Shown: one piece after another, positions 2,698-63,435 of the stretch | Numbering within the stretch: the first letter of the stretch is position 1 | Layout: every line of letters begins with the position of its first letter | Source of the DNA: a virus | Length of the DNA: 64,000 bases | Reading direction: 5' to 3' (one strand) | IMG/VR virus record: IMGVR_UViG_3300017757_000002 | Location: 1-64,000 of that record | Notes under the pieces: model-generated | What the model saw: the letters and a program-made list of their open reading frames with translations, nothing else | Told to the model about the DNA's origin: nothing | Databases searched by the model: none | Made by a program: the position numbers and the translations under genes

Positions 2698-3643
2698 TGA
2701 ACACCTCATCTTCGGGAAGTTGCTTAGTGAAAATAAAATTAACACTTCCTAATTTCTTTCTTGCTTGTCCAGTGATTAACTTCTTTGCATTCTCGATCAT
2801 ATCATCATAGAAATCTAAACAAGTTTTCCTGAGTTCAGGAATTGACTCAGAGTTTGCACCAGTAAATGTAGTGATAACTGTATAGTTAACACCAGTTGAA
2901 ATACCATCAGTCAAATCTCTCATAAGTCTTGCCCATCTATCTGACCTTTTTAAATCCTTTGCACCAGTCAATTTCTTTAAAATGTAAGAAGGGTCTTCGA
3001 CAATATCGATTCCATACTCTTCATAATACTCAGAAATGATTTTCTCATCAGTCATAATTTCAATCGGTACAAAATCAACTCCAGCTGTAATCAATATCTC
3101 TTCAGCAAGTTTTGACCTACTTGGATAATTCATAGGGAGTTGTGGATAATTTCTCTTAATGTAATTACTAACTGCATTCTTAGTTTTAGCTACTTTGTCT
3201 CCTCTCTTAACAATTTGTGCATGTGCAAAAATGAAATCTTCAGGCGTCTGCATAGTCTTGAAGGTGTTTCTCATATTCTCATCATTTGCATATGTGTTTC
3301 TTGCATCATCATCATCGAATTCACAAACTGCAACCCACATGTATTCTTCACCTTCAGCGTCATGTGCATCGAACCTGTGCTTTCCAGCGATAAGATTACC
3401 ATCCTGATCTATCACTGGTGGTTCAAAGTGTTGAGGTAAGTATGTTCCATCCTGAATCATTCTCCTGATTCCATCCCTACCAGCGGTTGTAACACCACTG
3501 ATTCTACCCCAGTTCTGATTGGTTGCATTGATATCAACTAATCTGACATAGTCATATCTGAGAACTCTCATGCCAGGCACAACCTGAACGGGGAACTGTG
3601 ATTGTTCCCCTTTCAATAGATTGACTGGTTTCTTAGTAGTCAT
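2684..3643 (-). CDS. ParB/sulfiredoxin-like domain protein
   Basis: About 319 residues. The N-terminal part has the ParB-like pattern: PPVIDQDGNLIAGKHRFDAH (about residues 76-95), in which GKHR takes the place of the family's G-x-H/R-R box, followed by V.VCEFDDDDAR. The rest is helical and unassigned. ParB-type folds bind nucleotide and sometimes nick DNA, but no partition system is present, so a role in DNA transactions is only inference. The start could be 3649 or 3643; the ATG at 3643 has GAGAG 8 nt upstream. It overlaps the AAA+ gene by 11 nt. Confidence 0.75.
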   Translation of the reverse strand: MTTKKPVNLLKGEQSQFPVQVVPGMRVLRYDYVRLVDINATNQNWGRISGVTTAGRDGIRRMIQDGTYLPQHFEPPVIDQDGNLIAGKHRFDAHDAEGEEYMWVAVCEFDDDDARNTYANDENMRNTFKTMQTPEDFIFAHAQIVKRGDKVAKTKNAVSNYIKRNYPQLPMNYPSRSKLAEEILITAGVDFVPIEIMTDEKIISEYYEEYGIDIVEDPSYILKKLTGAKDLKRSDRWARLMRDLTDGISTGVNYTVITTFTGANSESIPELRKTCLDFYDDMIENAKKLITGQARKKLGSVNFIFTKQLPEDEVFNEIN

Positions 3644-4886
3644 TCTCATCACTCTCAAAGTTAACCTCTTCCGTGAATGTCTCAGAAGACTCTTCCAAGT
3701 GGACACCATCGTCCACTTTGGTGTAGAGATCAAGGATTGAATTCCTAGTCTCTTCATCGAATCTTGAAATGCACATTTCAATAGACTTCATTTTGTCTTT
3801 GAACATTCTGAAAGCATTCACAATGTGAACCAACCTTCTAGTAGTCACGACATCATCAATCCCACCTTCGTAGAAAGTCTTCCTGATTATGTCAGCCCAG
3901 TCAACAAGTTTCTCACAGAAATCATCATCAACTTCACCAGTCAATCCCATTTCTTTTTTAAGAATCGATCTCTCAGTTTTCACTGGAGGATATTCTTGTT
4001 GCATCGTAATTGCAAACCTTTCAAGCATTGCTTCGTTCATGATCTGAGTCCCGATGAACTTACCATCCTCAGAACCTTGACCTTTAGTGTTTGCAGTAGC
4101 AAGGATAGTGAAACCTTCTTTAGGACTCACCCACTCACCAGTTTTCTTGATTAGGTAACCTTTACCTTCAAGAACTGATTGTAAACACATCAATTTGTTA
4201 GAACCCAAGTCAACTTCATCAAGAAGAAGGACAGCTCCTTTCCTCATTGCTTTGACCACTGGGCCTTCTCTGAAAACAATGTTACCATTGACTAGAGTAT
4301 GACCACCCATCAAATCATCTTCATCAGTTTCGATAGTGATATTAACCCTGTAGAGTTCCCTCTTCAATTGGGCACAAGTTTGTTCGATCATCAAAGTCTT
4401 ACCATTTCCTGAAAGACCAGTTACGAAAACTGGGAAGAAAATCTTAGATTTGATGATGTTCTTGACATCCTTGAAATGACCAAACGGCACATAGTTTGAC
4501 ATCTTCTCAGGAATGATTTTGATATCACCATCGAGAAGATTAACAGACTCAGTTGCAGCTGCAACTGGCATGTTAGAAGGGACTGCTTTTGCAGCCACTG
4601 GAGTCACAACCACTGGAGTCTCACCACCGTGAGAATAACCACCGTTGTATCCATTAACAACCTGTTCAAGGTTGAAGAGAACCCCACCCTCGGGATTAGG
4701 TTCTTTAAATGGAAACCTTGAGGATTTAATCCAATATGGAAGATATCCATCAAGTGCTTCTTTGATCTCTGCCCTAGTAAAGGCAGTCTGATTAGGATAC
4801 GATTTTATGAGGGTATCCAGTACCTCACTTTTATCGGGTGTAATGGTAAAATCCTTACCATTTACCGAAATAGTTTTATCAGTCAT
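3633..4886 (-). CDS. cobS: MoxR/CobS-type AAA+ ATPase
   Basis: AAA+ ATPase of the MoxR/CobS group. From the ATG at 4886 the protein has 417 residues, with Walker A GLSGNGKT (about 156-163), Walker B AVLLLDEVDLG (about 215-225), sensor 1 ILATANTKGQG (about 247-257) and an arginine-rich C-terminal lid with VVTTRRLVHI. CobS-like genes are well known in T4-like cyanophages. The large VWA protein two genes upstream is the natural partner, as in MoxR-VWA and CobS-CobT pairs. The ATG at 4886 has AGGAG 7 nt upstream. An in-frame ATGATG at 4919 sits 6 nt after a -10 box and could start a leaderless 428-residue form. Confidence 0.9.
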   Translation of the reverse strand: MTDKTISVNGKDFTITPDKSEVLDTLIKSYPNQTAFTRAEIKEALDGYLPYWIKSSRFPFKEPNPEGGVLFNLEQVVNGYNGGYSHGGETPVVVTPVAAKAVPSNMPVAAATESVNLLDGDIKIIPEKMSNYVPFGHFKDVKNIIKSKIFFPVFVTGLSGNGKTLMIEQTCAQLKRELYRVNITIETDEDDLMGGHTLVNGNIVFREGPVVKAMRKGAVLLLDEVDLGSNKLMCLQSVLEGKGYLIKKTGEWVSPKEGFTILATANTKGQGSEDGKFIGTQIMNEAMLERFAITMQQEYPPVKTERSILKKEMGLTGEVDDDFCEKLVDWADIIRKTFYEGGIDDVVTTRRLVHIVNAFRMFKDKMKSIEMCISRFDEETRNSILDLYTKVDDGVHLEESSETFTEEVNFESDENDY

Positions 4887-4925
4887 AGTCTCTCCTGTAT
4901 TAACTTTATTTCTCATCATGTAGCT

Positions 4926-4955
4926 ATTATCTCAAAAAGCCAGGGGCATTGTCAA
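4926..4955 (-). promoter_or_regulatory. Sigma70-type promoter PA (upstream of the AAA+ gene)
   Basis: The -35 TTGACA (4955-4950) and -10 GATAAT (4931-4926) are separated by 18 nt. The spacer shares ATGCC and GCTTTTTGA with two other promoters at 7862 and 8153. Six nucleotides after the -10 comes an in-frame ATG (4919) of the AAA+ frame, so the predicted +1 falls on that ATG. Confidence 0.85.
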
Positions 4956-4960
4956 GGCCA

Positions 4961-5230
4961 TTATTTAACTGGTTCAAGTAATCTCCCCATTTTGTTTAAG
5001 CATTTAATCTCACCTTTTGCATTCTTTTGAGTGAGATATTTCTCACCATTATTAACCCATGCTCTGAATGCAAAACATTCAACCTTCTTTTCCTTACAGT
5101 GATCGTATCGTTCACAACTATGAAAAGTGCAAGGTGCAGGGCCAACATCATTAATTGCATCAGCGAATTTACTGTAGTCTGCTGTTGGTATTCTTTCATA
5201 ATATGCTGGGTCTACCTTAAGATGTGGCAT
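4961..5230 (-). CDS. Small Cys-rich protein, possibly metal binding
   Basis: This 89-residue protein has a compact cysteine cluster, CTFHSCERYDHCKEKKVEC (residues 34-52), with spacing C-x4-C-x5-C-x6-C followed by FAFRAWVNNG. The spacing would suit a zinc site or an iron-sulfur site; neither can be proved from sequence. It lies between the VWA and AAA+ genes and overlaps the previous small gene by 14 nt, so it is part of that module. It ends just before promoter PA, which restarts transcription for the AAA+ gene. Confidence 0.8.
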   Translation of the reverse strand: MPHLKVDPAYYERIPTADYSKFADAINDVGPAPCTFHSCERYDHCKEKKVECFAFRAWVNNGEKYLTQKNAKGEIKCLNKMGRLLEPVK

Positions 5231-5438
5231 TGTATGTCTCCGACCATTTCATAAACACTAATCGTGCTTGATTTTTACTTAACCCAAAATTGTTTTCCAA
5301 CCATCTTGGAGCTCCAAACATATTGATCTTCCCTGAACTTCGTAAGTTCTCTAGGACTTCAAAATATTCCTCGACATTAAATGTGGTGCCGTCCACTTCT
5401 ATTTTTTCTACCATTGTAATGGCATCCATTTCATTCAT
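5217..5438 (-). CDS. Small hypothetical protein in the VWA-AAA module
   Basis: A 73-residue protein of unknown function. The second half (NNFGLSKNQARLVFMKWSETY) looks like a short helical, helix-turn-helix-like segment, but this is weak. The start is well supported: AAAGGAG lies 8 nt upstream and the ATG overlaps the VWA stop as TAATG, indicating coupled translation. Its place between the VWA protein and its probable ATPase partner suggests an accessory role in the same complex. Confidence 0.75.
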   Translation of the reverse strand: MNEMDAITMVEKIEVDGTTFNVEEYFEVLENLRSSGKINMFGAPRWLENNFGLSKNQARLVFMKWSETYNATS

Positions 5439-7855
5439 TACGCTATCTCCTTTATGAATTCGTTAGTTAAGAATCTAGAAGTTGATTTGTTCTTCTGATT
5501 CTTTTTGAATCTTGACATGATTGTGGCTTTCTTTGCACCGACCAATTCATCGTCCAAAGTATCTTCACCAGCTGTCCCGATGTTTGTCGCTGCAGTCAAG
5601 AACAATTTGTTGTACCCGACAGTTTCGAGAACCAAACCGTTGTTTCTTGCTTGTTTCCACATTTCATTTTGCATTATGTGGTCATAGTTGTGAGTTGATT
5701 CATGACCGATACAAGATAGTAAGTCAGTCATATCACCTTTTCTACCACAAACAAAGTATCCAGTAACCGTAACTCCAGTAGTATCAGAAACCCATTGAAG
5801 TAAGTTCTGAGTCATTCTGAAATTTTCTCTGTATCTGTTAGTTGATTCTTCAAACTTGTAGACTCTTTTGTTTATTGGGTCGATGATATCTCTTTCCTTC
5901 GTAGCTCTGTAACCGTATTCATCATCACCCATTTGATCTTGCTGTTCTTTTCTCTCAGCATCATCCATTTGAAGGATGTTTGCAGAATGAGAATAACCAT
6001 CAGTGATTACAGTCAAGATTGATTTCTCGACATTGTAAGCTTTGTTGAACTTAGGAAGTAATCCTCTCATGGCAACGATAGTTGCATCAAGTGGTGTACC
6101 ACCTAATCTGTATTTGTGTTCAGGGAATAAGACTTGGTCAACATCAATCCAATGTCCTTGGTCAGGGTCGTAGTAATCAACACCTTCGAACCAGTCATTG
6201 TGAGCTTCAAGTTTCTTATGGAAGTGTCTACCACCACCGTATCTGATATTGTCAACAAAGTAGTGGTTCCAAAGTGTGCAGACATACTGCATCATTTCTT
6301 TGTACTCTTTTGCATTCTGTTCGTTAGAGAAAATCTCAACCAAGAATCCTTCTCTGTTTCTCCAGTAGTTATCATCAGAATCAACTTCTCTTTTCTTCGA
6401 TATGTTATCTGAGAACAAGTAGACTCTGTGAGGAATCGAAACTTTTCTGCAGAACATTGTAAGAATCATTGCTTGTTCTAGAAGGTCTTGAACTTCGTTG
6501 TTGATCGAACCACTCCAATCGATCATGATGTTAACACCGTGGTTCTTCCCATCAGGAAGATAAGTAACTCTTTTGAAAACATCATCAACAATCTGATACT
6601 TTGCAAGTCTGTTCATATCCAACTTACCAGTCTTACCACTGAATGCATGTTTCGATGAAAGAGCAGTTTGTCTCATTTCAAATTCTTTTGCCATGTGATT
6701 GACGATTGCTTTGTTTTTACTTTCGATCTTCTTGAAAGTGTGAACACCCATCTTCTGAGTTTTTGCAATCTTCTCACTGTAGTATTTTACTGCAAACGAT
6801 TCAGGGTTTGAGTAATACTCTCTCCAATCATCAAGAACCAATTTGTAGTCGTAAAGAGTGTCAGAACAATACTTGTCGAAATCTTTGATTGAAAGATCAC
6901 ACTGAGTTCTAATCATGTTAGTCTCAGAAACAAATTGCTCTTCGTTGTTATGTGCATTGTGTTCAGTGATTGATTCCCTTGCACCATCTTCATCATCGAA
7001 ATCTTCGGGTTTTACATCTTCACTAGAACCAGTACCACCAACTTTTTTCTTAGCTTCTTCTGACTCTTCTTCTGACTCTTCCTCTTCACCATCCTCAGAT
7101 TCTTGGTCACCACCTTTTGATTCATCATCTTCTAACTCAGGAAGATTATCACCCTCAGTTTCTTCTGATTCCTGAGACTCATCATCCCAAGACTCGCCGT
7201 CCTGAGATTCTTCATCATCTTCATCACCCTCTTCTTCATCACCGATGTCAAACATTTGAGGAATCAATTTTTCATCTTCCTCAGTTCTTGTCTCGTTTTC
7301 TTTTGACCACTCATATATTGCTGTGGCACATTCTTCAACCTCATCCCAAGATGCACACTTCATTGACCAATCAAGGAAGAATTGTTCTTCTTTAGAAAGT
7401 TTGATGTTGATTCTAGAACCACACTTAGTGATTAAGTTGATTTTGTCAATCAAAGAAAGTGTTGATAAATCTCTGTCTTTAACTCCAAAGAAATCCATTT
7501 CCATCAATTCATTATATGCAGTGAAGAAAGACCTTCTCAATCCAGCATACTTCTCTCTGATATTCTTCTCAATCCTGACATCTTCTACAACATTAAGATA
7601 TCCTTTAAGAGTTCTGTTTTTAGTCACTGCTGAGTGAACACCTTCATATGGAGTCCATAATGCATGACCAACTTCGTGACCCATGAATAGATCATAGAGT
7701 TCAGAAGAGATATCATCTTTGAAAATAGGGCAACAAAGTAACCTATTCTTAAGATCAAAGTATGCAGTAGGAGTTTTCCTATGCACAACTGTTAAGTTTT
7801 CCCCTGCCATCAATTTTGCAAGGTTGTCTTTTTGTGTTCTGATTTTTGATTCCAT
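5438..7855 (-). CDS. cobT: Large VWA-domain protein with HEVGH motif (CobT-like)
   Basis: An 805-residue protein of three parts. The N-terminal region holds HEVGH (residues 60-64) and, about 27 residues later, NVVEDVRIE (88-96), a layout like gluzincin metalloproteases. A long Asp/Glu/Ser-rich linker spans about 190-300. The C-terminal VWA domain has MIDAS DWSGS (about 444-448), GGTPLDAT (about 580) and ITDGYSHS (about 615). CobT-like proteins combine an acidic linker with VWA and work with a CobS AAA+ partner, here two genes downstream. The metalloprotease assignment is inference. No Shine-Dalgarno is visible; the ATG lies 6 nt after the -10 of promoter PB, so the mRNA is probably leaderless. 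Confidence 0.88.
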   Translation of the reverse strand: MESKIRTQKDNLAKLMAGENLTVVHRKTPTAYFDLKNRLLCCPIFKDDISSELYDLFMGHEVGHALWTPYEGVHSAVTKNRTLKGYLNVVEDVRIEKNIREKYAGLRRSFFTAYNELMEMDFFGVKDRDLSTLSLIDKINLITKCGSRINIKLSKEEQFFLDWSMKCASWDEVEECATAIYEWSKENETRTEEDEKLIPQMFDIGDEEEGDEDDEESQDGESWDDESQESEETEGDNLPELEDDESKGGDQESEDGEEEESEEESEEAKKKVGGTGSSEDVKPEDFDDEDGARESITEHNAHNNEEQFVSETNMIRTQCDLSIKDFDKYCSDTLYDYKLVLDDWREYYSNPESFAVKYYSEKIAKTQKMGVHTFKKIESKNKAIVNHMAKEFEMRQTALSSKHAFSGKTGKLDMNRLAKYQIVDDVFKRVTYLPDGKNHGVNIMIDWSGSINNEVQDLLEQAMILTMFCRKVSIPHRVYLFSDNISKKREVDSDDNYWRNREGFLVEIFSNEQNAKEYKEMMQYVCTLWNHYFVDNIRYGGGRHFHKKLEAHNDWFEGVDYYDPDQGHWIDVDQVLFPEHKYRLGGTPLDATIVAMRGLLPKFNKAYNVEKSILTVITDGYSHSANILQMDDAERKEQQDQMGDDEYGYRATKERDIIDPINKRVYKFEESTNRYRENFRMTQNLLQWVSDTTGVTVTGYFVCGRKGDMTDLLSCIGHESTHNYDHIMQNEMWKQARNNGLVLETVGYNKLFLTAATNIGTAGEDTLDDELVGAKKATIMSRFKKNQKNKSTSRFLTNEFIKEIA

Positions 7856-7861
7856 ATGTAT

Positions 7862-7891
7862 ATTATCTCAAAAAGCTGTAGGCATTGTCAA
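7862..7891 (-). promoter_or_regulatory. Sigma70-type promoter PB (upstream of the VWA gene)
   Basis: TTGACA (7891-7886), 18-nt spacer, GATAAT (7867-7862). The spacer is nearly the same as in PA and PC. Exactly 6 nt separate the -10 from the ATG at 7855, so the expected +1 is the A of the start codon. Confidence 0.87.
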
Positions 7892-7898
7892 GGCCTGA

Positions 7899-8123
7899 TT
7901 AGCCGTGTGGTGAAGGGACATCCATTGCATCATACCATAACTGGTCGATCAAAATTGTCCTTGCATAATCTATAATGTTTGCACCGTGTACACTGTCACC
8001 AGTGAATTTGCTTACTTTACTGACATTTTTGTCATTCAATGCTTTTACCACATCTATATCGTCAAGTAAAGAAACATGTTGTGCAATGTCATCTGCAATC
8101 ATATCATTTCCAAAGTGACTCAT
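7899..8123 (-). CDS. Small hypothetical protein
   Basis: A 74-residue acidic protein with no recognised domain and no membrane segment. It is the first gene after promoter PC. The predicted leader is about 23 nt and carries GGAGGA 4-5 nt before the ATG, so this start is firm. It is followed by promoter PB and then the VWA gene. Its place at the head of the unit is typical of a small early phage protein, but no function can be assigned. Confidence 0.75.
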   Translation of the reverse strand: MSHFGNDMIADDIAQHVSLLDDIDVVKALNDKNVSKVSKFTGDSVHGANIIDYARTILIDQLWYDAMDVPSPHG

Positions 8124-8152
8124 ATTTCCTCCATTTCTTTAGTTGATAGTAT

Positions 8153-8182
8153 ATTATATGAAAAAGCTTGAGGCATTGTCAA
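8153..8182 (-). promoter_or_regulatory. Sigma70-type promoter PC, perfect consensus
   Basis: TTGACA (8182-8177), 18 nt, TATAAT (8158-8153), both hexamers perfect. It lies between the tRNA-Arg gene and the 7899-8123 gene and reads into the latter. It shares the GCCTTGACAATGCC block and GCTTTTT spacer with PA and PB. Confidence 0.92.
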
Positions 8183-8194
8183 GGCTTGATTTGG

Positions 8195-8268
8195 CCTCCG
8201 TGAGAGGACTCGAACCTCTAACCTACGGCTTAGAAGGCCGTTGCTCTATCCAGTTGAGCTACACGGAG
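8195..8268 (-). tRNA. trnR-UCU: tRNA-Arg (anticodon UCU)
   Basis: A 74-nt cloverleaf can be folded by eye. The acceptor stem is CTCCGTG with CACGGAG and a G discriminator. The anticodon stem ACGGC/GCCGT encloses the loop CTTCTAA, giving anticodon TCT. The T arm is GGTTCGAGTCC and the D arm contains AGCTCAACTGGATAGAGC. The 3' CCA is not encoded (GCC follows). It reads AGA, a codon favoured in AT-rich genomes. It is the only tRNA in the window. Confidence 0.96.
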
Positions 8269-8277
8269 TAATAGGGA

Positions 8278-9045
8278 TTAAGAGATTTTAGATAATCTTT
8301 TATATTCTGCCCATCTTTCAGGGTCTTTAGATAGGTCTTCGGTATTATATAACCCACCTTGGACTTGATAGTCTAAGAATTGTCTGATAGTGATCTCGTT
8401 GTGTTCTAGATCATCAACGGGTCTTTCTGTCATAGCTTTATCGATGTCAGCTGTGAACCAACATGCAATGGTGTGTCTTGGAGCTCTTCGAACTTTGAAT
8501 ACTCCATGTCCATGATAGATACCTTGGAATAGAAATCCACTACCTACCTCGGGTTCGACTTGGTGTCCAAATGGATAATAATCTGTAGGTGGAAAATATG
8601 TTTCACCACCATTGTAATCATCATTTAAATATAGAATCACTGTCCATTCTCTAGATGGTGCCTTCTCACCTGTGGCAACCTTTGTTTCGATATTAGGGTC
8701 TTCTCGAACTTCATCATTAGATAGTGTATCCAAGTGTGGGTCTTGTACTCCACCAATATGCCATCGAGTCATAGTTGCCATTTCAGTATGGAAAACTTGT
8801 CCCGTTGCATTGTAGATTTCACCTATACAGTGATTTTGGACTTTTTGGAATAAGAGACGAATGTACTCATTCTTGATATGCATCTTTCTGATGCCCCAAT
8901 AATCTATTAGTGAACCGACTTTTTCTAAGTGTCTATGACTGTTGTGCCACTGAATCAGTGTCTGGCACTCTTCCTTCGTCAGAATCGGAATCACTTTGTG
9001 ATTGTAGACTTTGGAGTTGTCTAGCAATTTCCATTCTTTTTTCAT
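8278..9045 (-). CDS. 2OG-Fe(II) oxygenase, prolyl-4-hydroxylase-like
   Basis: A 255-residue 2-oxoglutarate/Fe(II) dioxygenase. The iron ligands are H104 and D106 (DPHLD) and the distal His in YHGHGVFKV (about 180), with the 2OG-binding Arg in RRAPRHTIACWF. GGETYF and FLFQG also fit the P4H-like fold. The substrate is unknown; such enzymes hydroxylate protein prolines or oxidise other targets and are frequent in marine T4-like phages. The N-terminal KVIPILTKEECQTLI matches the family start, so the 113-nt overlap with the deformylase gene is probably real. Confidence 0.9.
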   Translation of the reverse strand: MKKEWKLLDNSKVYNHKVIPILTKEECQTLIQWHNSHRHLEKVGSLIDYWGIRKMHIKNEYIRLLFQKVQNHCIGEIYNATGQVFHTEMATMTRWHIGGVQDPHLDTLSNDEVREDPNIETKVATGEKAPSREWTVILYLNDDYNGGETYFPPTDYYPFGHQVEPEVGSGFLFQGIYHGHGVFKVRRAPRHTIACWFTADIDKAMTERPVDDLEHNEITIRQFLDYQVQGGLYNTEDLSKDPERWAEYKRLSKIS

Positions 9046-9547
9046 AATCTATTCTCTTTCTCCTCTCTTTTGGTCTAGACTTGATAGCCCTTTCCAATTT
9101 TAACTTAGAGGCTCTTTGAAGGAATATAATTCCATTTAAATGATCTAGTTCGTGTTGAACACATCTAGAACCCATTCCTTCTAATTGTAGTGTATGTCTT
9201 TCTCCATCTGCATCTGAGTATTCTAATTCAATTGCAGAAGGTCTCTTTATCATTAAGTATATATCGGGAAAAGAAAGGCACCCTTCTTTCATTAATTCTG
9301 TTTCTTTGGATAACTTTGTAATCTCAGGATTAAAGAATGCTCTAGTACCACTATCTGCAGTTCTCATGACGAACACTCGATATTGTAAACCTAACTGGTT
9401 TGCAGATAGACCAAGACCACCAAATCGTTCCATGGCTTCTGCCATGTTCTTCTCGATCTCTTTTGGGTCTTCGGGTGGATTTTCAAAATCAAAATCCGTG
9501 GTTGGTTCTCTGAGAACCTTCATTGCTTCTTCAACTAATTGATACAT
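8933..9547 (-). CDS. def: Peptide deformylase
   Basis: Removes N-formyl groups from nascent proteins. All three motifs are present: GLGLSANQLG (44-53; Ser replaces the usual Ala), EGCLSFP (88-94) with the metal-binding Cys, and QHELDH (131-136) with the two metal His and catalytic Glu. The catalytic core ends near residue 180; the last 24 residues, Ser/Asp-rich, lie inside the overlap with the downstream oxygenase gene and may be non-essential. Phage deformylases are known in marine T4-like phages. The ATG overlaps the previous stop as TAATG. Confidence 0.95.
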   Translation of the reverse strand: MYQLVEEAMKVLREPTTDFDFENPPEDPKEIEKNMAEAMERFGGLGLSANQLGLQYRVFVMRTADSGTRAFFNPEITKLSKETELMKEGCLSFPDIYLMIKRPSAIELEYSDADGERHTLQLEGMGSRCVQHELDHLNGIIFLQRASKLKLERAIKSRPKERRKRIDYEKRMEIARQLQSLQSQSDSDSDEGRVPDTDSVAQQS

Positions 9548-11019
9548 TATAAACTTACTTCTGTTACTATCCCTCTAGTATTACTTATCTCCACATTAAA
9601 GAACGCCATCACTGCTTCAAACATTCTCTTACCCATATTGGCAATCTTCTTTAAAGCTTTCTTGATAGAGTCCATCACTTTCTTGATGACTTTTTGGAAT
9701 TTATTCCAAGTCTTCGAACCAAAATCTTTTGCCCAGTTACCAGCTTTCTTTAACTGACTTAAGAAGTTCTCATCTAGATAATCTTCTGTGAGTAAAGTCT
9801 CGTAACCTTCAATCGTTTTTAGTTCATTGATTAGTATAGTTGATACATTGTCTATACCAAAATGTTCTTTTAAACTCATTCTCATTGCAGAATAAGCGGG
9901 TGAATTACCACCACCTTTTTTGAATGCAACATAAGGTTTTACTGAACTTGCATACTTCTTAATAATAGGGTCACTGATAGATGTAATCGGTTCTACTACA
10001 ACTGCACCACTACCAACATCAAACTTTCCTAATAAGTTTGCAGCTGCTTTACCTTCACTGAATTTAACATTACCTGTTGATGCTTCTAATACAATGTTCT
10101 GACTAAACAATTCATTAACTTTTGTATTCGTGTTTATATAGTTCTCTAAAATTGCAGATAGTTCTTTATTGTCTGCATCTTTTTGTTGGAAGTCTAAGAT
10201 TGCTTCATCCTTCTCACCTTCTTTAGTTCTCTTATTCAATGAGGTAACAGTTTCCTTTGTGATAAGAGCATTCATTTTCTCATCCATTGCATCAGTTAAT
10301 CCTTTTGCAAAACCTTTATGCTCTCCCATCATACTTAATGCAGCTCTTACAGTTGCAATCGCTTCACCCTTTGCACCTGACATAAGTTGTGAACCACCTT
10401 CTTTCTTAAGAGAAATCTTTTCTGAAAACTTAATACCAGCAATATCTGTTTTAGGTGTGGTATTACTTGCACCACTATCCTTATATAAAGATGATATCTT
10501 ACTAGGGATTCCACCCTTACCTGTAGATACTAAATGATTCTCTTTTAGTTTCTTATTAAAATTCTTTGCAATTGATTTTGCAATATCTAAATGTAAAGGG
10601 AACGACTCTGCAGTTCTGATAATGTCTGAATCATTATCCTTACCATTGAGTATATTGTATTCAAAGATAATAAGTTCTTCCCACTGAGCTCCTGATGGAG
10701 TTCCACCACTCTCTTTTACATGATTGAAGAATGCAGATTTATATCCTAGTCCACCTTTAACATGAAAAACTTTCTTACCACTTTGTAAGTATTTTTCATT
10801 TGTACCATCTTCGGAACCAATGAAGATTGCCTTATTGGTAGGTTTGACTGCAACAAAGATATCACCATGTTTATGACCTTCTTTATCCATTTCTTTTATT
10901 CCACCCTTATATAAGAACTTATGCCCTATAACATAATCGGGTTTAAGAATAGAAGCTTCGACTAGAGGTTTCTTCTCTATGACGATCTTATTTTCTGCAA
11001 ATTGTGAAAAGCTTTTCAT
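9547..11019 (-). CDS. Nuclease-like protein with putative capsid-targeting sequence
   Basis: A 490-residue protein. The N-terminus MKSFSQFAENKIVIEKK resembles the capsid-targeting peptides of T4 internal head proteins (MKTYQEF-type) and is followed by LVE|A (residues 19-22), which fits the gp21 cleavage consensus LxE|A. The middle contains WEELI (113-117), PKTDI (189-193) and KISLKK (201-206) followed by GSQLMSGAKGE, in the order of a PD-(D/E)xK nuclease core, although the last acidic position is Ser. The final 80 residues form Lys-rich amphipathic helices. A packaged, possibly injected, DNA-binding protein is inferred. It is preceded by GATAAATA 5 nt before the ATG and no Shine-Dalgarno. Confidence 0.8.
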   Translation of the reverse strand: MKSFSQFAENKIVIEKKPLVEASILKPDYVIGHKFLYKGGIKEMDKEGHKHGDIFVAVKPTNKAIFIGSEDGTNEKYLQSGKKVFHVKGGLGYKSAFFNHVKESGGTPSGAQWEELIIFEYNILNGKDNDSDIIRTAESFPLHLDIAKSIAKNFNKKLKENHLVSTGKGGIPSKISSLYKDSGASNTTPKTDIAGIKFSEKISLKKEGGSQLMSGAKGEAIATVRAALSMMGEHKGFAKGLTDAMDEKMNALITKETVTSLNKRTKEGEKDEAILDFQQKDADNKELSAILENYINTNTKVNELFSQNIVLEASTGNVKFSEGKAAANLLGKFDVGSGAVVVEPITSISDPIIKKYASSVKPYVAFKKGGGNSPAYSAMRMSLKEHFGIDNVSTILINELKTIEGYETLLTEDYLDENFLSQLKKAGNWAKDFGSKTWNKFQKVIKKVMDSIKKALKKIANMGKRMFEAVMAFFNVEISNTRGIVTEVSL

Positions 11020-11024
11020 ACTAC

Positions 11025-11032
11025 TATTTATC
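11025..11032 (-). promoter_or_regulatory. Late promoter GATAAATA
   Basis: An octamer like the T4 late -10 (TATAAATA), 5 nt before the ATG at 11019, with GTAGT between. The predicted +1 is the start codon. It overlaps the end of the gp46 gene. Confidence 0.6.
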
Positions 11033-12747
11033 TATTCTGCGATACGAGAGAAGTTTTTATGTTTCTCAAACCTCACTACATGTTCGAATTTATCGTATAG
11101 TATATCACCTTTGTGAGATATAATGAATGCATTTGTCTTCTCTGTAAGTGTATTCAACATCTTCATGAATTCATCTGTACCTGATGCATCGAGGGAACTG
11201 TCGAATACTTCATCTAATACTAGAAGGTTTGTATTTACTGAGTTCTTCATTCTTGCAACAGCTCTCCAAGTGAATAGTAATGCAAGATCGATTCTCATCT
11301 TTTCACCTTGAGAGAAGTTCTCATATTTAAATACATCCCTGAATCTAGACTTGATTGTTTCATCGAAACTTTCATCCAGTTCGAACCCAACATAGAATTC
11401 TAATTGTGCAAGATACTTGTTAATTAGTTTATTCATGATAGGAACATACTGTTTGATAATCTTTTCTTTTACACCCTGATCTCTTAAGAGTAGAGTTGCA
11501 ATTTCTAGATAGTGACCATGGTCAGCAAGATGTTGTTTCTTCTTAGTTAAGATGTGCAAATCATCCTCTGCCTTTTCAACTTGTTCATGTGCATCAGTAT
11601 TACCTTCTTGCTCTTGTTCAAGTTCTTTGATCTCTTTCTGTAACTTACCGATATACTTTTGATTAGAAACGATCTCTGTTTGTGAAAGACCTATCTCTCT
11701 TTGTATCTCGTCTATTTCTGACTGGACTCCGTTGATTCTTTCAATCTCGGAATGTAGTTCTGTGACTTGTCCTTCGAGAGTTGACAACGCTTCCTTGATC
11801 TCTGTAACCTTCGAATTTTTTTCCTGAATGTGCTTCTGCTTGTGTTCATGGTCTAATCCTTGTTTGCATGTTGGACAATTGTCATTGTTCTCGTAGAACT
11901 CAATGTCTCCAATTGCTTTCTTTCGAGCTCTTTCGAGTTGAGTCTCCATGTCATTTGTTTGTTTAAGTCTAGTTTCCGTAGAATCTTTATCCGAGATAAG
12001 TCGTGTTTTCTCCACCACATTTTTCGTCTTTTCATCAACCTCTCCTAATAGTTTGTCTATGTTGGTTTGAGTTTGATTAATGGTAGTTTCAAATTTGTAT
12101 ATTTTTTCATCACGATTTTCACGAAGCGCATCAAGTTGACTGTTAAGACCATTAATCCGTTCTTCAAGAATTGCAATTTCATGTTGATTTTCTTTGATAT
12201 CTAATGCATGATTAGATTTTCGTTTCCTCAACAACTGCATCATAGTTGTAAATATTGTAATATCCAAAAGGTCTTCGACTAACTTTCTTCTGTCCTTTGC
12301 TCGAAGTTGCATGAACGGAGTAAAGTTTGCCGACCCTAGGATTGCCACCTGAGTAAAAGAACGAAAACTCATTTTGAGTATGTTCGATTCTAGATGGTCT
12401 TGATAATCCCTGACACTTGCATCTTGATTTAACAAAATGTCATTACACCAAATTTCAAATGTATTTGGTTTTGCCCCACGGATTAATTTGTAGTCTTTTC
12501 TCCCGATAGAAAAATCGAGTTCGACTAATAATTCTTTTTGATTGACTGAGTTGATTAGAAGGTCTTTCTTTAGGTTACGAAACCCACGACCATATAATGC
12601 ATAACATAATGCATCTAATAATGTTGATTTACCAGCACCGTTCTCTCCTAGTACAAGAGTAGTCTGATGGGAATTAAGTGGTATCTTTGTAAACTTGTTT
12701 CCCGATGATAGTAAATTCTTATATCTTACTTCTTTAAATATTATCAT
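11032..12747 (-). CDS. 46: Recombination nuclease subunit gp46 (Rad50/SbcC-like)
   Basis: SMC-like ATPase of the phage Mre11-Rad50 complex, needed for end resection and recombination-dependent replication. At 571 residues it is close to T4 gp46 (560). It has Walker A GENGAGKST (about 34-42), a coiled coil, a zinc hook CPTC (about 288-291), a second coiled coil, the ABC signature FSQGEK (about 478-483) and Walker B NLLVLDEVFDSSLD. It overlaps the upstream gp47 gene by 4 nt, and the two are probably co-translated. Confidence 0.96.
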   Translation of the reverse strand: MIIFKEVRYKNLLSSGNKFTKIPLNSHQTTLVLGENGAGKSTLLDALCYALYGRGFRNLKKDLLINSVNQKELLVELDFSIGRKDYKLIRGAKPNTFEIWCNDILLNQDASVRDYQDHLESNILKMSFRSFTQVAILGSANFTPFMQLRAKDRRKLVEDLLDITIFTTMMQLLRKRKSNHALDIKENQHEIAILEERINGLNSQLDALRENRDEKIYKFETTINQTQTNIDKLLGEVDEKTKNVVEKTRLISDKDSTETRLKQTNDMETQLERARKKAIGDIEFYENNDNCPTCKQGLDHEHKQKHIQEKNSKVTEIKEALSTLEGQVTELHSEIERINGVQSEIDEIQREIGLSQTEIVSNQKYIGKLQKEIKELEQEQEGNTDAHEQVEKAEDDLHILTKKKQHLADHGHYLEIATLLLRDQGVKEKIIKQYVPIMNKLINKYLAQLEFYVGFELDESFDETIKSRFRDVFKYENFSQGEKMRIDLALLFTWRAVARMKNSVNTNLLVLDEVFDSSLDASGTDEFMKMLNTLTEKTNAFIISHKGDILYDKFEHVVRFEKHKNFSRIAE

Positions 12748-13811
12748 AGATAAGTGTGTTCGTCTAATGCTTCATTATACAATGAAGTCATCAAATCGGT
12801 AAGAGGCTTTTTCTTACCCTGTATCTCCATACCTTCTACATACTTGTTTAATATAGTTAATGTGTCTTCAACATTCTCCACATCAGAATCATCCATCAAG
12901 TCCATATGTTTATGGTCATCTACTACTTGTAAATGTAATGGAGAAGCTGCATGTATCTTATCTAAGAATGAATCAAACCAATAAGGATTGTCTTTGTTAA
13001 CAACAATTACCTTTGTGAATGTTCCTGATACATTACTATAGTCTTTATTAACAATGGTTTCAAATGATTCTTTTGTATCATCATAGAATACCTTTTCAAA
13101 TATAGTAATTGGATTACGAACTGGAAGCATATCCCTTGTTGATGTATCAAACACATGGAAGTATTTGTTATCTCCATAGTCTGACCAAGTGAATTGCATT
13201 TGTGAACCAAGGTAATGAATGTTTGCAAATTTAGATTTCTGATGGAAGTGACCACTGTAAACCTTTTCGAATCGACTTACATATGAATGATCTAATCCAT
13301 GTTGACATGTCATGCCGGGCATCATTAATGCACCCTCAAATTCAAAATGACCCATACAAATAGGTGCATTACATGTGGTTAAAAACTCAACGGAATCTGC
13401 GTAGTTATCACTATTAATCCATGGACTCATTGCAATATTCAACCCATCATATTCTCTTACTTCGGGTTCTTGTATTATACTAATGTTGTCGGATTCAAAT
13501 AGTAATAGATCAGGTGCATTTACATCATTGGTATTCTTATAATAAGTATCATGATTACCAATAATCAAATCCATACTGATACCAGCTTCTAACATAGGTT
13601 TTATGAAGTGTTCTCTGTTTGCTTTGAGAGACGAGAAGTTGATATACTTCCTTCGATCAAAGTAATCTCCTAGATGAATGATATGACTGATATCGTTTTC
13701 AACTAGATACGGGAAAAATACTTCCTGATAAAATCGTCCTTGGTAATCAGACATAGCCTGCATATCACCTCGGACACCTGCGTGTGTGTCGTTAAGTATT
13801 GCTATCTTCAT
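12744..13811 (-). CDS. 47: Recombination nuclease subunit gp47 (Mre11/SbcD-like)
   Basis: Metallophosphoesterase subunit of the gp46-gp47 complex. The 355-residue protein carries the calcineurin-like motifs in order: NDTHAG (7-12), GDYFDRRKY (48-56), GNHDTYY (104-110), then CMGHFEFEG and YSGHFHQK for the final metal-binding His residues. T4 gp47 is 339 residues. It overlaps gp55 upstream and gp46 downstream by 4 nt each, in the compact T4-type arrangement. Confidence 0.96.
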   Translation of the reverse strand: MKIAILNDTHAGVRGDMQAMSDYQGRFYQEVFFPYLVENDISHIIHLGDYFDRRKYINFSSLKANREHFIKPMLEAGISMDLIIGNHDTYYKNTNDVNAPDLLLFESDNISIIQEPEVREYDGLNIAMSPWINSDNYADSVEFLTTCNAPICMGHFEFEGALMMPGMTCQHGLDHSYVSRFEKVYSGHFHQKSKFANIHYLGSQMQFTWSDYGDNKYFHVFDTSTRDMLPVRNPITIFEKVFYDDTKESFETIVNKDYSNVSGTFTKVIVVNKDNPYWFDSFLDKIHAASPLHLQVVDDHKHMDLMDDSDVENVEDTLTILNKYVEGMEIQGKKKPLTDLMTSLYNEALDEHTYL

Positions 13812-14368
13812 TTAGAGAATTTTTCTAGATTAGTTTCCTTTTTTACTTTCTTGGCTCTTTTAGATTTTCGTGGTTCGTACTCAACCCGATTCATATGTTC
13901 TTGCATCCACTCTACATTTGTGTTTGTAAGATTAGGGTCGTGTTCACCATCAATGGTTGTGTATGCATCCATAGTAACATTTGATTCCTCGATGGACTTC
14001 TGTTTAATGAAAACTTGTTTCTTCTCCTTCTGTATCCTTCGTAGGAATGCGTAGTAACAAATTTGTGTTACATATGCAAATGCATTATTTGATTTTTCTG
14101 TATTGAAGTTACCGATATATTGGATACAGTTTTCAATTGCATCACAAATCATTTCGTCTCGGTATGTGTAGTTGATAAAATTAGGACGAGTCGATAATCG
14201 AGTCGCAATCTTATAGATACATTCACCAATGTATTCTGTCATTCTTGGAGGTACTTCTCCGTTGGATTCTGCGAGTTTAGTTGCTTGGTTATACTCGGAG
14301 ACTGCTAGTGTGAACTCTTTGTTGTTAACATAGTGTTCTGCTTTTTTAGGGTCTTTTTTAGTAGTCAT
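13808..14368 (-). CDS. 55: Late sigma factor gp55
   Basis: A phage sigma factor that directs host RNA polymerase to TATAAATA late promoters together with gp33 and gp45. The 186-residue protein matches T4 gp55 in size (185) and in core residues: YVNNKEF near residue 13, then YTYRDEMICDAIENCI and NAFAYVTQICYYAFLRRI..EKKQV (about 96-120), corresponding to the region 2-like segment. No Shine-Dalgarno is visible; the ATG sits 6 nt after a TATAAT box, so the transcript may be leaderless. The many late-type octamers in this window are its expected targets. Confidence 0.93.
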   Translation of the reverse strand: MTTKKDPKKAEHYVNNKEFTLAVSEYNQATKLAESNGEVPPRMTEYIGECIYKIATRLSTRPNFINYTYRDEMICDAIENCIQYIGNFNTEKSNNAFAYVTQICYYAFLRRIQKEKKQVFIKQKSIEESNVTMDAYTTIDGEHDPNLTNTNVEWMQEHMNRVEYEPRKSKRAKKVKKETNLEKFSK

Positions 14369-14512
14369 GTGTCTATTATACTAGAAAATCTCTATATTGT
14401 AAGAGGCTTTTTAGTATTTATTTAATTTGAATTTTCTTCGAAAACCACCTTTACAAACTGGAAATCTATGATAAAATAATTATGTGCCTAAGGGGAATAT
14501 ACTAATAAGGGA
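14369..14512. other. Intergenic stretch before gp55
   Basis: This part of the 370-nt stretch between gp55 and the 56-aa gene carries the gp55 promoter (14375-14402) and no further frame that I can support. An AATAAATA-like octamer occurs on the minus strand near 14414-14422, but it is not placed against any start codon. Confidence 0.5.
14375..14402 (-). promoter_or_regulatory. Sigma70-type promoter upstream of gp55
   Basis: TATAAT (14380-14375) with TTACAA (14402-14397) 16 nt upstream. Six nt (AGACAC) separate the -10 from the gp55 ATG, the same spacing as at the VWA and AAA+ genes. The -35 is imperfect. Confidence 0.65.
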
Positions 14513-18124: not shown

Positions 18125-18667
18125 TTAGGAAGTGGATTTTATTTCGTAGTATGTGAACCTAAATTCTACAGTTGCAATTACGGGTTCACCGTCTGCCCCT
18201 GATTCCATCTCAATCCCACTTAGTGATATAGGGAATGCATCATGGAACCTAAAGAATTTATTAGGTATGTTTTTATTAGTGTTTGTAATTAGAGTTATGT
18301 CTGAGTATTGATTCATATCATTATCAATTGCAGATTGAGAACCAGTTGCAGTCTTGACTGACTGAACATAAGCTGCATATGCATTTGGGTCTGATACTGG
18401 AACAATAGAATCCATCCAATCAAATATCTCTTTAAAGTTTCCTAGGTCTTCATCTACTAAGAAACCGATACTGAGAGTATCAAAAGAAACCTTATCGCCT
18501 GGGAAGAATGCATCTAAACCGATTCCAGCAGGTGCAACCGTTTCAGTGAATTGTACGCCTGGGATATTTACAGTCTTTACAAAGAACTCTACAGTAGGTA
18601 CTTTGTCGATAAGAAGTCTAAAATTATTCTTACCTAAAAGAGACTTATTGATTATTGGGTCAGCCAT
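18125..18667 (-). CDS. Tail-tube-fold protein, paralogue of gp19
   Basis: 180 residues. It aligns by eye with the gp19 tube protein of the same phage (24657-25154): NNFRLLI..PTVEFFVKTVNIPG and PGDKVSFDTLSIGFLVDED near the N-terminus, then F-P-ISLSGIEM and a terminal VEFRFTYYEI strand. In T4 the tube initiator gp54 and cap gp48 share the tube fold, so this may be a tube initiator, cap or related baseplate component. It is much shorter than T4 gp54. It overlaps the upstream small gene by 8 nt. Confidence 0.8.
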   Translation of the reverse strand: MADPIINKSLLGKNNFRLLIDKVPTVEFFVKTVNIPGVQFTETVAPAGIGLDAFFPGDKVSFDTLSIGFLVDEDLGNFKEIFDWMDSIVPVSDPNAYAAYVQSVKTATGSQSAIDNDMNQYSDITLITNTNKNIPNKFFRFHDAFPISLSGIEMESGADGEPVIATVEFRFTYYEIKSTS

Positions 18668-18878
18668 TAACTTTAATTATCCTTTTGGATGTGGATTGAT
18701 CGTGGTAGTCACCGTCTCTATATTCTCTTGTTACACTCTTTTCACAAAGATAACCGTCTTGAATATAGGTAGTGGTAATCACCCTACTTAATACATCGTG
18801 TGTTTCAACACCACTTGGAAATGCAAGTCTCTCAAATGGGCCTTCACTGATTGTTATATTTTTATCAAATTCTTTCAT
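18660..18878 (-). CDS. Small hypothetical virion-region protein
   Basis: A 72-residue protein with alternating charged and beta-prone segments (GVETHDVLSRVITTTYIQDGYLCEKSVTREY). No domain is recognised. It lies between two virion-region genes and is preceded by AATAAATA 5 nt before the ATG with no Shine-Dalgarno, so it is probably a late gene read from a leaderless start. It overlaps the gp19-like gene by 8 nt. Confidence 0.75.
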   Translation of the reverse strand: MKEFDKNITISEGPFERLAFPSGVETHDVLSRVITTTYIQDGYLCEKSVTREYRDGDYHDQSTSKRIIKVNG

Positions 18879-18883
18879 ATTAC

Positions 18884-18891
18884 TATTTATT
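18884..18891 (-). promoter_or_regulatory. Late promoter AATAAATA
   Basis: AATAAATA, then GTAAT, then the ATG at 18878. The predicted +1 is the start codon. A TTCG hairpin (18897-18914) lies directly upstream, giving a stop-and-restart arrangement. Confidence 0.65.
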
Positions 18892-23078: not shown

Positions 23079-24614
23079 TTAAAATCCTCCAAATCCATCA
23101 TCTTCTTCTCCACCTTCCTCATCAGCACCCTCATCTTTTATCTGAGCATCGATGATTTTGATGTCCTCTTCTGTTTGTCTTAGTACATACTTTCTAATGT
23201 ATTCGTTAGAATAGTATTTACCAACATAATCAGAAATAGTTCCAAGGGTATCTAATCTCTCCCTTAGAATCTCTGCATCCTTCAACTCTGTAAAGTGGTT
23301 GTCAGTTGCAAATTCATACTGAATGAAGTCTTTAACCTTGTCAAATTCTTCTCCAGTTACGATCTCCTTAAGAACTAAATGAGTCTTAAGAATATCTGTA
23401 AAAACTCTTCCAAACTTCTTTTGAAGTCTGTTTGTGAACTTATTAAATTTAAGTTCGTCTCTTGAGATTTCTGATGCACGACCCATGTTAAATCCATTGT
23501 CTGCTTCTAATCTCGTTGCAGGCACATTTAGTGACTGATATAACTTCTTCTTGAAGTATTCTATATCGTCTATGTCTGCAAGGTTTTGACCGCCTGGAAG
23601 TGTAGTTATCTCTGTTCCTCTACCACCTTCTCTTCTAGGTAACCAAAAGTCTTCTAACATCGACATGTGTTTACGATCATCCTTGATCTCACCTGTCTCT
23701 GCGTTATACACTAATTTATTTCTATATTTGTGCATAACATCGGCAAGGTATTGTTCTGCCTTTGCCTTTGGAAGGTTACCTACATCAATGTAGAATATCC
23801 TTCTTTCAGGAGCTCTTGAAATCCTATAGATAACAAGGGCATCCTCCATCATTGCTAACTGATTTGCAGTCTTCAATGCTTTGTGAAGATATCCGATTAC
23901 AACATTTCTACTGTAATCTAATAGTCCACTGGTAGTGTATGTAACTGCCTCAGGGGCAATTCTTACAACATTACCATCTGTTGATGAAGACTTATCGAAT
24001 CCTTTATCATTAAACATGTAAAATTCTTCGATCTTTGAAACCCTTTCGACTTTAGTCTTAGGGTCTTTTTCCTTCTCAACATTCCTGACCTTCTTAATTT
24101 TAAGTGGGTCAACATTTCTTAAGTCGACAACACCTAACTTAGGTCTTTTGCTGTCTACGACCTTATGGAAGTAAATTCTTCCATCAACATACCACTTTCT
24201 GAATATTTCATGAGAGTTCTGATTGAACTTCATTAAGGATAAGATGTGACCAAACTCGTCTTGCATCTTGTTCTTGATGCCGTCAGAGAGTTTAACATCT
24301 CTGAGATCGAGTGCTACAATCCTATCTGTAATATCAGATGTGATACACTCATTGACAATATCTTCTATTGCCGAATCACATTCAGGTACTAATGATGTCT
24401 CACGGTATCTACGAATGAGTTCTGCCTCATTCTTAATACCACCTTCCATATCAACATAGGCACCGTATGCGCCTCCTGATATGTACCCAGCCTGTTGTTG
24501 TATGACTGGAGTGCCATCATCGTCAACTGGAGGTACAAATGACTTTGCATTCTTTACCTCCGTTGCCCTTAACTCGTCTTTCTTACGAGTAATTTCGAAC
24601 CCGAATAATTCCAT
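23079..24614 (-). CDS. 20: Portal vertex protein gp20
   Basis: Dodecameric portal that nucleates head assembly and later carries the DNA. The 511-residue protein matches T4 gp20 (524). Recognisable segments are [20 protein letters not shown] (54-73), [42 protein letters not shown]-type residues (about 264-288) and [20 protein letters not shown]. The final residues are acidic and Gly-rich. No near Shine-Dalgarno is seen; TAAATA lies 5 nt before the ATG, so a leaderless late mRNA is likely. Confidence 0.97.
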   Translation of the reverse strand: [511 protein letters not shown]

Positions 24615-24619
24615 AATAT

Positions 24620-24627
24620 TATTTAGA
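24620..24627 (-). promoter_or_regulatory. Late promoter TCTAAATA before gp20
   Basis: Variant late octamer, then ATATT, then the gp20 ATG at 24614. The hairpin 24627-24642 abuts it upstream. The predicted +1 is the start codon. Confidence 0.6.
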
Positions 24628-32789: not shown

Positions 32790-33050
32790 TTATTCTTGGA
32801 AGAAAGTTTTCTGCTGAAGTCTATCAAGTTTCTCATCTATCTTCTGAATAGAAGTCATAATCCTATTGAAGTCTGCCTCAATCTGTTCTCTTGTGGCATA
32901 GTCTTTTGCGATCTCTTCCCTAGTTTTATTGACGAGAATATCTAGTCTTTTTTGTTCAGATAGGACTGTACGAATCAAAAATCCTAGTGGGACTATGATT
33001 ACAGTCATCACTAGATTCCAAATGATGTAAGGTGATATCGTTATTTCCAT
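32790..33050 (-). CDS. Small membrane protein with coiled coil
   Basis: 86 residues: an N-terminal transmembrane helix (IIWNLVMTVIIVPLGFLIRTVL, roughly residues 9-30) and a long charged coiled coil (about 31-82). This one-helix plus coiled-coil layout resembles some holins and spanin-type proteins, but no lipobox or lysis partner is seen, so no lysis role is claimed. CATAAATA lies 5 nt before the ATG and there is no Shine-Dalgarno, so late, leaderless expression is likely. Confidence 0.8.
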   Translation of the reverse strand: MEITISPYIIWNLVMTVIIVPLGFLIRTVLSEQKRLDILVNKTREEIAKDYATREQIEADFNRIMTSIQKIDEKLDRLQQKTFFQE

Positions 33051-33055
33051 ACGAT

Positions 33056-33063
33056 TATTTATG
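33056..33063 (-). promoter_or_regulatory. Late promoter CATAAATA
   Basis: CATAAATA, ATCGT, then the ATG at 33050. The predicted +1 is the start codon. Confidence 0.6.
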
Positions 33064-44866: not shown

Positions 44867-45202
44867 TTACCTCGTTACGCCTGGTGTAAGTATTGCTTGT
44901 CCTTCAACAACTCGGGTTGTTTCTGATGACGAAGTCTTTGTGATATTTAGGTCATATACATATCTACCACTTTCTAAACCTGTAGTTTGAGTATCGTTTA
45001 GTGATAAAGTTACTTGTCCTTGACTTGCATTAATAGTTGTAGCAAATGTTGCACTGATTGAAGAAGAACCGTATGTTTTTCTCATTTGTGCAGCTGCAGT
45101 GTATCCATTAAGGTCTAAAACCTCACCAGCTGTATCTGTACAGTCTACAGTGATTGCATAGTCTGTTCCTTGATCGATGTATAAATTTGCTATGATTGCC
45201 AT
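44867..45202 (-). CDS. Small structural protein, BppU-N-like
   Basis: 111 residues, beta-rich. It starts NLYIDQGTDYAITVDCTDTA and contains DTQTTGLESGRYVYDLNI and a final VVEGQAILTPGVTR. This pattern resembles the N-terminal domain of phage receptor-binding baseplate proteins (BppU-type), a weak match. It is preceded by GATAAATA 5 nt before the ATG, with no Shine-Dalgarno. Confidence 0.78.
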   Translation of the reverse strand: MAIIANLYIDQGTDYAITVDCTDTAGEVLDLNGYTAAAQMRKTYGSSSISATFATTINASQGQVTLSLNDTQTTGLESGRYVYDLNITKTSSSETTRVVEGQAILTPGVTR

Positions 45203-45207
45203 ATTAC

Positions 45208-45215
45208 TATTTATC
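45208..45215 (-). promoter_or_regulatory. Late promoter GATAAATA
   Basis: GATAAATA, GTAAT, then the ATG at 45202. The predicted +1 is the start codon. Confidence 0.65.
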
Positions 45216-63006: not shown

Positions 63007-63422
63007 TATCGTGTCCTATTAACTGTTAATTGAAGCTCTTGGTTTGTTAAACCATTCTTAATGTTATAGAAAATGATTACATCCAAACTATTGTCTCTTG
63101 TATCAAATTTACATCTTACATTTTCAACTCTAGGTTCAAAATTTTCTATTGCTTCTGCTATATGTTTCTTTGCCCGTCTAACCTTTCTGTCAGTATCTAA
63201 TTCGAACAATAGACCTCTGATATTTCCACCTAAACTGGGTTTAAAAGGTCTCTCGTAGTAATTGGTCATTACTATATTTCTTACTGCTCTTCGAACTGCA
63301 TCTGAGTCCGATTTAGTTGCAACATCTCCTGTAATAGGATGTGCAGTGAACAATAAATCCAAATCCTTATATGCATTTGGAGTTGCAACATTCTTTGACT
63401 TGGGTTTTACATAATCGACCAT
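63006..63422 (-). CDS. 25: Baseplate wedge protein gp25
   Basis: 138 residues, T4 gp25 (132) size; the wedge-sheath initiator of contractile tails. It has the conserved YYERPFKPSLGGNIRGLLFE and the EPRV motif (IENFEPRVENV). TATAAATA lies 5 nt before the ATG, with no Shine-Dalgarno: the clearest leaderless late start in the window. It is followed by gp6 with TAATG. Confidence 0.94.
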   Translation of the reverse strand: MVDYVKPKSKNVATPNAYKDLDLLFTAHPITGDVATKSDSDAVRRAVRNIVMTNYYERPFKPSLGGNIRGLLFELDTDRKVRRAKKHIAEAIENFEPRVENVRCKFDTRDNSLDVIIFYNIKNGLTNQELQLTVNRTR

Positions 63423-63427
63423 AATAC

Positions 63428-63435
63428 TATTTATA
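63428..63435 (-). promoter_or_regulatory. Late promoter TATAAATA before gp25
   Basis: Perfect TATAAATA, GTATT, then the ATG at 63422. It matches the T4 consensus best; the predicted +1 is the start codon. Confidence 0.85.

Follow-up and report, generated by a model that had tools for sequence, protein, structure and literature searches.

Promoter spacing points to leaderless mRNAs in both transcription classes of a marine T4-like phage clade

Three minus-strand genes in the viral DNA analysed here (the window, 64 kb out of a 69,839-base metagenomic virus record) raise the question of whether a promoter may be placed so that transcription begins on the start codon itself, since the genes for an AAA+ protein (ATG at 4919), a VWA protein (7855) and gp55 (14368) each carry a -10 box followed by 6 nt (N6) and then ATG. 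A sigma70 -10 box ends at -7, and the 6 nt that remain would place +1 on the A of the ATG, as a first-pass annotation had proposed for all three genes; the motif is present at each, and the Shine-Dalgarno (SD) sequence is, as reported there, missing before the ATGs at 4919, 7855 and 14368. Leaderless mRNAs are already known, for example that of phage lambda cI. The promoters match the sigma70 hexamers at 11/12 positions for AAA+, 11/12 for VWA and 10/12 for gp55, with spacing within 16-18 nt, and the genes in the region are arranged head to tail on a single strand, in an order (AAA+, VWA, gp46/47-like, gp55) similar to that of phage Mosig. The nearest named relatives of gp55 belong to the marine T4-like phages Melnitz and Mosig and to Synechococcus phages, with 52-61% identity.

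The layout is most readily examined at gp55 and VWA, for which the following features have been identified:

14398..14403, minus strand: gp55 -35-like box CTTACA (alternative reading TTACAA with N16)
14375..14380, minus strand: gp55 -10 box TATAAT
14369..14374, minus strand: gp55 discriminator AGACAC, 6 nt; predicted +1 at 14368, the A of the ATG
13808..14368, minus strand: gp55 late sigma factor gene, 186 aa, PHROG 234, predicted leaderless
7886..7891, minus strand: VWA -35 box TTGACA, kept in homologues
7862..7867, minus strand: VWA -10 box GATAAT, with an N18 spacer holding a conserved T5 tract
7856..7861, minus strand: VWA discriminator ATACAT, 6 nt; predicted +1 at 7855, where the ATG begins
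5438..7855, minus strand: VWA (CobT-like) gene, 805 aa, PHROG 459 (peptidase), ATG at 7855 predicted leaderless

On the minus strand the gp55 upstream reads CTTACA-N17-TATAAT-AGACAC-ATG (14368), ahead of a protein that matches the late sigma factor family PHROG 234 with E 1e-57, and the VWA upstream reads TTGACA-N18-GATAAT-ATACAT-ATG (7855). Each ATG is preceded by an in-frame stop 12 nt upstream; the gp55 ATG is the sole start codon before the conserved YVNNKE, and VWA has no alternative start codon before its conserved N-terminus QKDNLAKL. Both window genes are characterised by an AUG start, no SD and no other usable in-frame start upstream.

Conservation of the spacing was assessed in 71 distinct gp55 upstreams (from 80 relatives gathered), taking the best-scoring promoter within 90 nt upstream and ignoring the position of the ATG, and in 60 distinct VWA upstreams, with promoters likewise picked blind to the ATG. 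A gap of exactly 6 occurs in 35/71 gp55 upstreams, nearly all from the window's clade, with gaps of mostly 20-35 in the cyanophage-like group, and in 41/60 VWA upstreams, with a gap of 28 in 11 that form a leadered subclade. Once upstreams at least 70% alike had been removed (leaving 38 gp55 and 24 VWA representatives), a gap of 6 was retained in 20/38 for gp55, where other gaps typically held 1-3 and the next highest 9, and in 15/24 for VWA, against typically 1-3 per other gap and a second peak of 12 at gap 28 from the leadered subclade. The gap stays constant among gp55 homologues whose spacers and discriminators differ widely, and it is constant in VWA together with TTGACA and spacer length, while the -10 core drifts (GATAAT, TAGCAT, TACCAT, TATACT). 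In both families an in-frame stop 9-15 nt upstream dictates the start in most cases, a minority of homologues carrying an upstream GTG, TTG or ATG. A pyrimidine, the usual -1 base when transcription starts on A, precedes the ATG in 18/20 gp55 and 14/15 VWA representatives; a 4-base SD-like match occurs in 2/20 and 2/15, respectively. The N6-ATG layout is real for these two of the three noted genes, in terms of their sequence. Some upstreams in the gp55 region (14369-14440 and homologues L003-L053) also feature an inverted repeat, CCCC...GGGG, that covers the -35, for example in L032.

The AAA+ gene presents a different arrangement, set out in the features below:

4950..4955, minus strand: AAA+ -35 box TTGACA
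4926..4931, minus strand: AAA+ -10 box GATAAT
4917..4919, minus strand: AAA+ ATG at predicted +1, a 5'-terminal upstream AUG and not the conserved start
4892..4896, minus strand: AAA+ SD AGGAG; a GGAGA-type SD is kept in homologues
3633..4886, minus strand: AAA+ gene, CobS-like, PHROG 249, conserved start ATG at 4886

Its upstream reads TTGACA-N18-GATAAT-AGCTAC-ATG (4919) on the minus strand, and the second ATG, at 4886, does carry AGGAG, as had been noted. Homologues share the promoter, but in them a leader of 24-49 nt, containing a GGAGA-type SD, separates it from the conserved start, with the first ATG in frames 0, 1 and 2 relative to the main start in 11, 8 and 9 cases. Leaderless translation from 4919, which would add an 11-residue N-terminal extension, agrees with the N6 spacing and in-frame ATG seen in the window and its close relative L084, but is rendered improbable by the homologues, in which the SD-preceded 4886 ATG is retained but the +1 ATG shifts in frame. 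The AAA+ mRNA is most likely leadered, judging from these comparisons, and opens on an AUG that is not conserved; the first-pass proposal of +1 on the start codon, together with a start at 4919, is not supported here, while its sigma70-based prediction is supported for gp55 and VWA. E. coli mRNAs are known that combine an SD leader with a 5'-terminal AUG (PMC4965119), and the predicted AAA+ transcript resembles them in its first AUG and its downstream SD-led start; it is unlike them in that the frame of the first AUG varies among homologues and that translation of this AUG is hypothetical. The homologue leaders commonly open with a GATGAGAAA-like stretch, (G)ATGAGAAA (window 4892-4925), whose frame is not kept. 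The VWA (7862-7891) and AAA+ (4926-4955) promoters share GGCCTTGACAATGCC...GCTTTTTGAGATAAT, the N18 spacer and the T5 tract, all retained in homologues. A leadered contrast within the same region is provided by a 74-aa gene (7899-8123), with 29 nt from promoter to ATG and an SD inside:

8153..8182, minus strand: consensus promoter TTGACA-N18-TATAAT of the 74-aa gene

A tRNA-Arg (tct) gene at 8192-8268 is located just upstream of this promoter, whose match to the consensus is the strongest in the region.

A parallel arrangement has been identified in the late class. ATAAATA followed by 5 nt (N5) and ATG precedes five genes in the window, and a variant box precedes the portal gene:

11017..11031, minus strand: late box ATAAATA-N5-ATG before a 490-aa gene (9547-11019)
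18876..18890, minus strand: late box ATAAATA-N5-ATG before a 72-aa gene (18660-18878)
24612..24626, minus strand: late-like box CTAAATA-N5-ATG before the portal gene (23079-24614); ATAAATA-N5 in the orthologues of G001, G005 and G006
33048..33062, minus strand: late box ATAAATA-N5-ATG before an 86-aa gene (32790-33050)
45200..45214, minus strand: late box ATAAATA-N5-ATG before a 111-aa tail-fibre-assembly-like gene; kept in 5 records
63420..63434, minus strand: late box ATAAATA-N5-ATG before a baseplate wedge gene; kept in 4 records

The phage has a TATAAATA-like box and encodes gp55, the two marks of T4-type late promoters. As the T4 late box occupies -13 to -6 (PMC1524935), the 5 nt that remain would again place +1 on the ATG. 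Both the box and its distance to +1 are identical to those of T4, where in the parts sampled the ATG lies 12-35 nt downstream; here, unlike T4, a subset of ATGs is predicted at +1. In the 69.8-kb record, 5 ATGs occur at N5 of a late box against 0.24 per offset (p 5.8e-6). Counts of the late N5 pattern over whole records, against a reversed control, were 5-13 vs 0-2 in the window's clade, 8/0 in Mosig, 9/1 in HTVC008M, 4/0 in Melnitz, 2/0 in T4 and 1/1 in Syn9; P-SSM2 (3/3), P-SSM4 (2/2) and S-PM2 (2/1) lay at most 1 above the control. Since N6 is kept in diverged gp55 and VWA homologues and the late class has a parallel N5, selection on the spacing, as suggested in the first-pass annotation, is supported.

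Genome-scale counts extend the observation beyond single families. Among ATG-ORFs of at least 50 aa in the 69.8-kb record, 3 lie at N6 of promoters scoring at least 9, against 0.22 per offset (p 1.4e-3). Of these, the one at 7504 is false, and the gp55 promoter scores 8.9, just under the cut of 9, so that the window by itself gives no more than a hint of the early class. The 7504 motif (TTGAGA-N18-TATAAT-N6-ATG) was rejected as it falls within the coding part of VWA, where relatives retain it because of the protein, and it calls for caution with motif counts, the early N6 counts including some such in-gene copies. A loose early pattern, used to cluster gene families, produced numerous false hits within genes and was left out of the counts. 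In six pooled genomes (G000, G001, G004, G005, G006 and Mosig), 37 ATG-ORFs lie at N6 after early-type sites, against ~3.4 per other offset, and 44 at N5 after NATAAATA, against ~2.6; other codons gave no peak at N6/N5 in this set (GTG 1/0, TTG 0/0, CTG no peak). Per-record Poisson values range from 1.4e-3 to 3.1e-8 (early) and from 1.4e-4 to 2.3e-13 (late), the six records being related and not independent, which makes the pooled p-values too strong. An SD precedes 2/39 N6 and 4/55 N5 starts (6/94 pooled), compared with 347/783 other starts, which were SD-favoured when picked. Further N6 genes in these records include, as we take them to be from their N-termini, those for DNA polymerase gp43, primase gp61, a DNA methyltransferase and HAD-type phosphatases, and an annotated late-promoter accessory protein of Mosig is likewise at N6. 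Neither peak was seen in T4 (two 50-kb parts), Syn9 (50 kb) or one SAR11 genome (400 kb). A stricter early N6 pattern yields only 1-4 per named phage (Mosig 4 vs 1 in the control), and the early class is therefore clearest in the uncultured clade.

We consider it probable, at about 0.8, that a marine T4-like phage clade makes leaderless mRNAs in both transcription classes. Host RNA polymerase with a sigma70-type factor would begin the transcripts of gp55, VWA and certain further early genes on the first base of the start codon, the phage gp55 holoenzyme would achieve the same outcome for a subset of late genes from a box 5 nt before the ATG, and the resulting messages would be translated via recognition of the 5'-terminal AUG and not through SD pairing; AAA+ would be the exception, with a short SD-bearing leader that opens on an AUG not kept in homologues. 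What the sequences show is the spacing, its conservation, AUG exclusivity, the weak or absent SD and the absence of the layout from the comparison genomes; where transcription begins, that translation is leaderless and what advantage this might bring are inferred.

A shift of 1-3 nt in the predicted start would create a tiny leader, and the choice of start by RNA polymerase is in general flexible by a base or two, so that real promoters starting a few bases upstream might give leaders of 1-5 nt and nearly rather than strictly leaderless messages; gaps of 7 in some gp55 and VWA homologues and of 9 in one gp55 subclade agree with this, but the sharpness of the peak at 6, the pyrimidine before the A and the restriction of the peak to ATG make it unlikely. 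Functional gp55 and VWA might instead come mainly from longer transcripts, by readthrough between head-to-tail genes on the same strand or from a late promoter ~45-50 nt upstream of gp55, with the close promoter secondary. ATAAATA does end 45-55 nt before the ATG in 19/39 gp55 N6 homologues, and may possibly represent a second, gp55-dependent and leadered late promoter; longer leaders would, however, have no SD near the ATG, and ATAAATA is absent upstream of VWA in all of the 41/41 N6 homologues, so longer transcripts as the main source appear quite unlikely. Chance coincidence in AT-rich DNA draws on the early class of the window alone, with its p of 1.4e-3 and one false member, but is practically negligible against the homologue spacing, the six-genome peaks and the codon specificity.

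The layout might also be a host habit copied by the phage, leaderless genes being common in some bacterial groups (PMC3160421); the SAR11 genome, which may not be that of the host, argues against it, with 0/213 early-type sites at N6 and 1/460 late-like sites at N5 in 400 kb, and we regard this origin as unlikely. A takeover of translation, in which infection would shift ribosomes toward leaderless mRNAs, for example via a phage bS21, is likewise unlikely. This ribosomal protein is encoded by Mosig (9932-10141), G002 and G004-G006, and in G006 (C1:68680-68829) its gene is itself at N6; it was not found in G000 (a partial record), G001 or others, several of which are fragments, and since G000 and several other relatives show the layout without it, bS21 is a candidate cause only.

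Leaderless transcription in both classes would place the clade alongside several known systems. The predicted genes are like lambda cI in that the promoter puts +1 on the AUG, that AUG alone is used and that no SD is needed, and unlike it in that a single gene is concerned there, compared with several genes and two promoter classes in one lytic phage group here, as predicted from sequence. The pelagimyophages Mosig EXVC030M and HTVC008M are cultured marine T4-like phages of Pelagibacter that share the late N5 peak, which is strong in both; Mosig also has VWA at N6, but its gp55 is leadered (gap 14), and across the 50 kb of HTVC008M that were scanned no N6 peak of the early class is seen. Leaderless mRNAs in general are the subject of PMC3160421 and of reference 27 of PMC5312081. 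A literature search covering few subscription papers and preprints found no description of leaderless mRNAs in T4-like marine phages, nor of their use by two sigma factors.

Late-promoter prediction has failed in pelagimyophages (PMC7029224), and the layout may help to explain this reported difficulty. It also indicates where gene starts and promoters are to be sought, and cultured relatives make the idea testable. If 5' ends confirm the prediction, a widespread marine phage group would use leaderless mRNAs for key regulators, including the late sigma factor, as well as for some of the late genes, and its two sigma factors would reach one result through different spacings.
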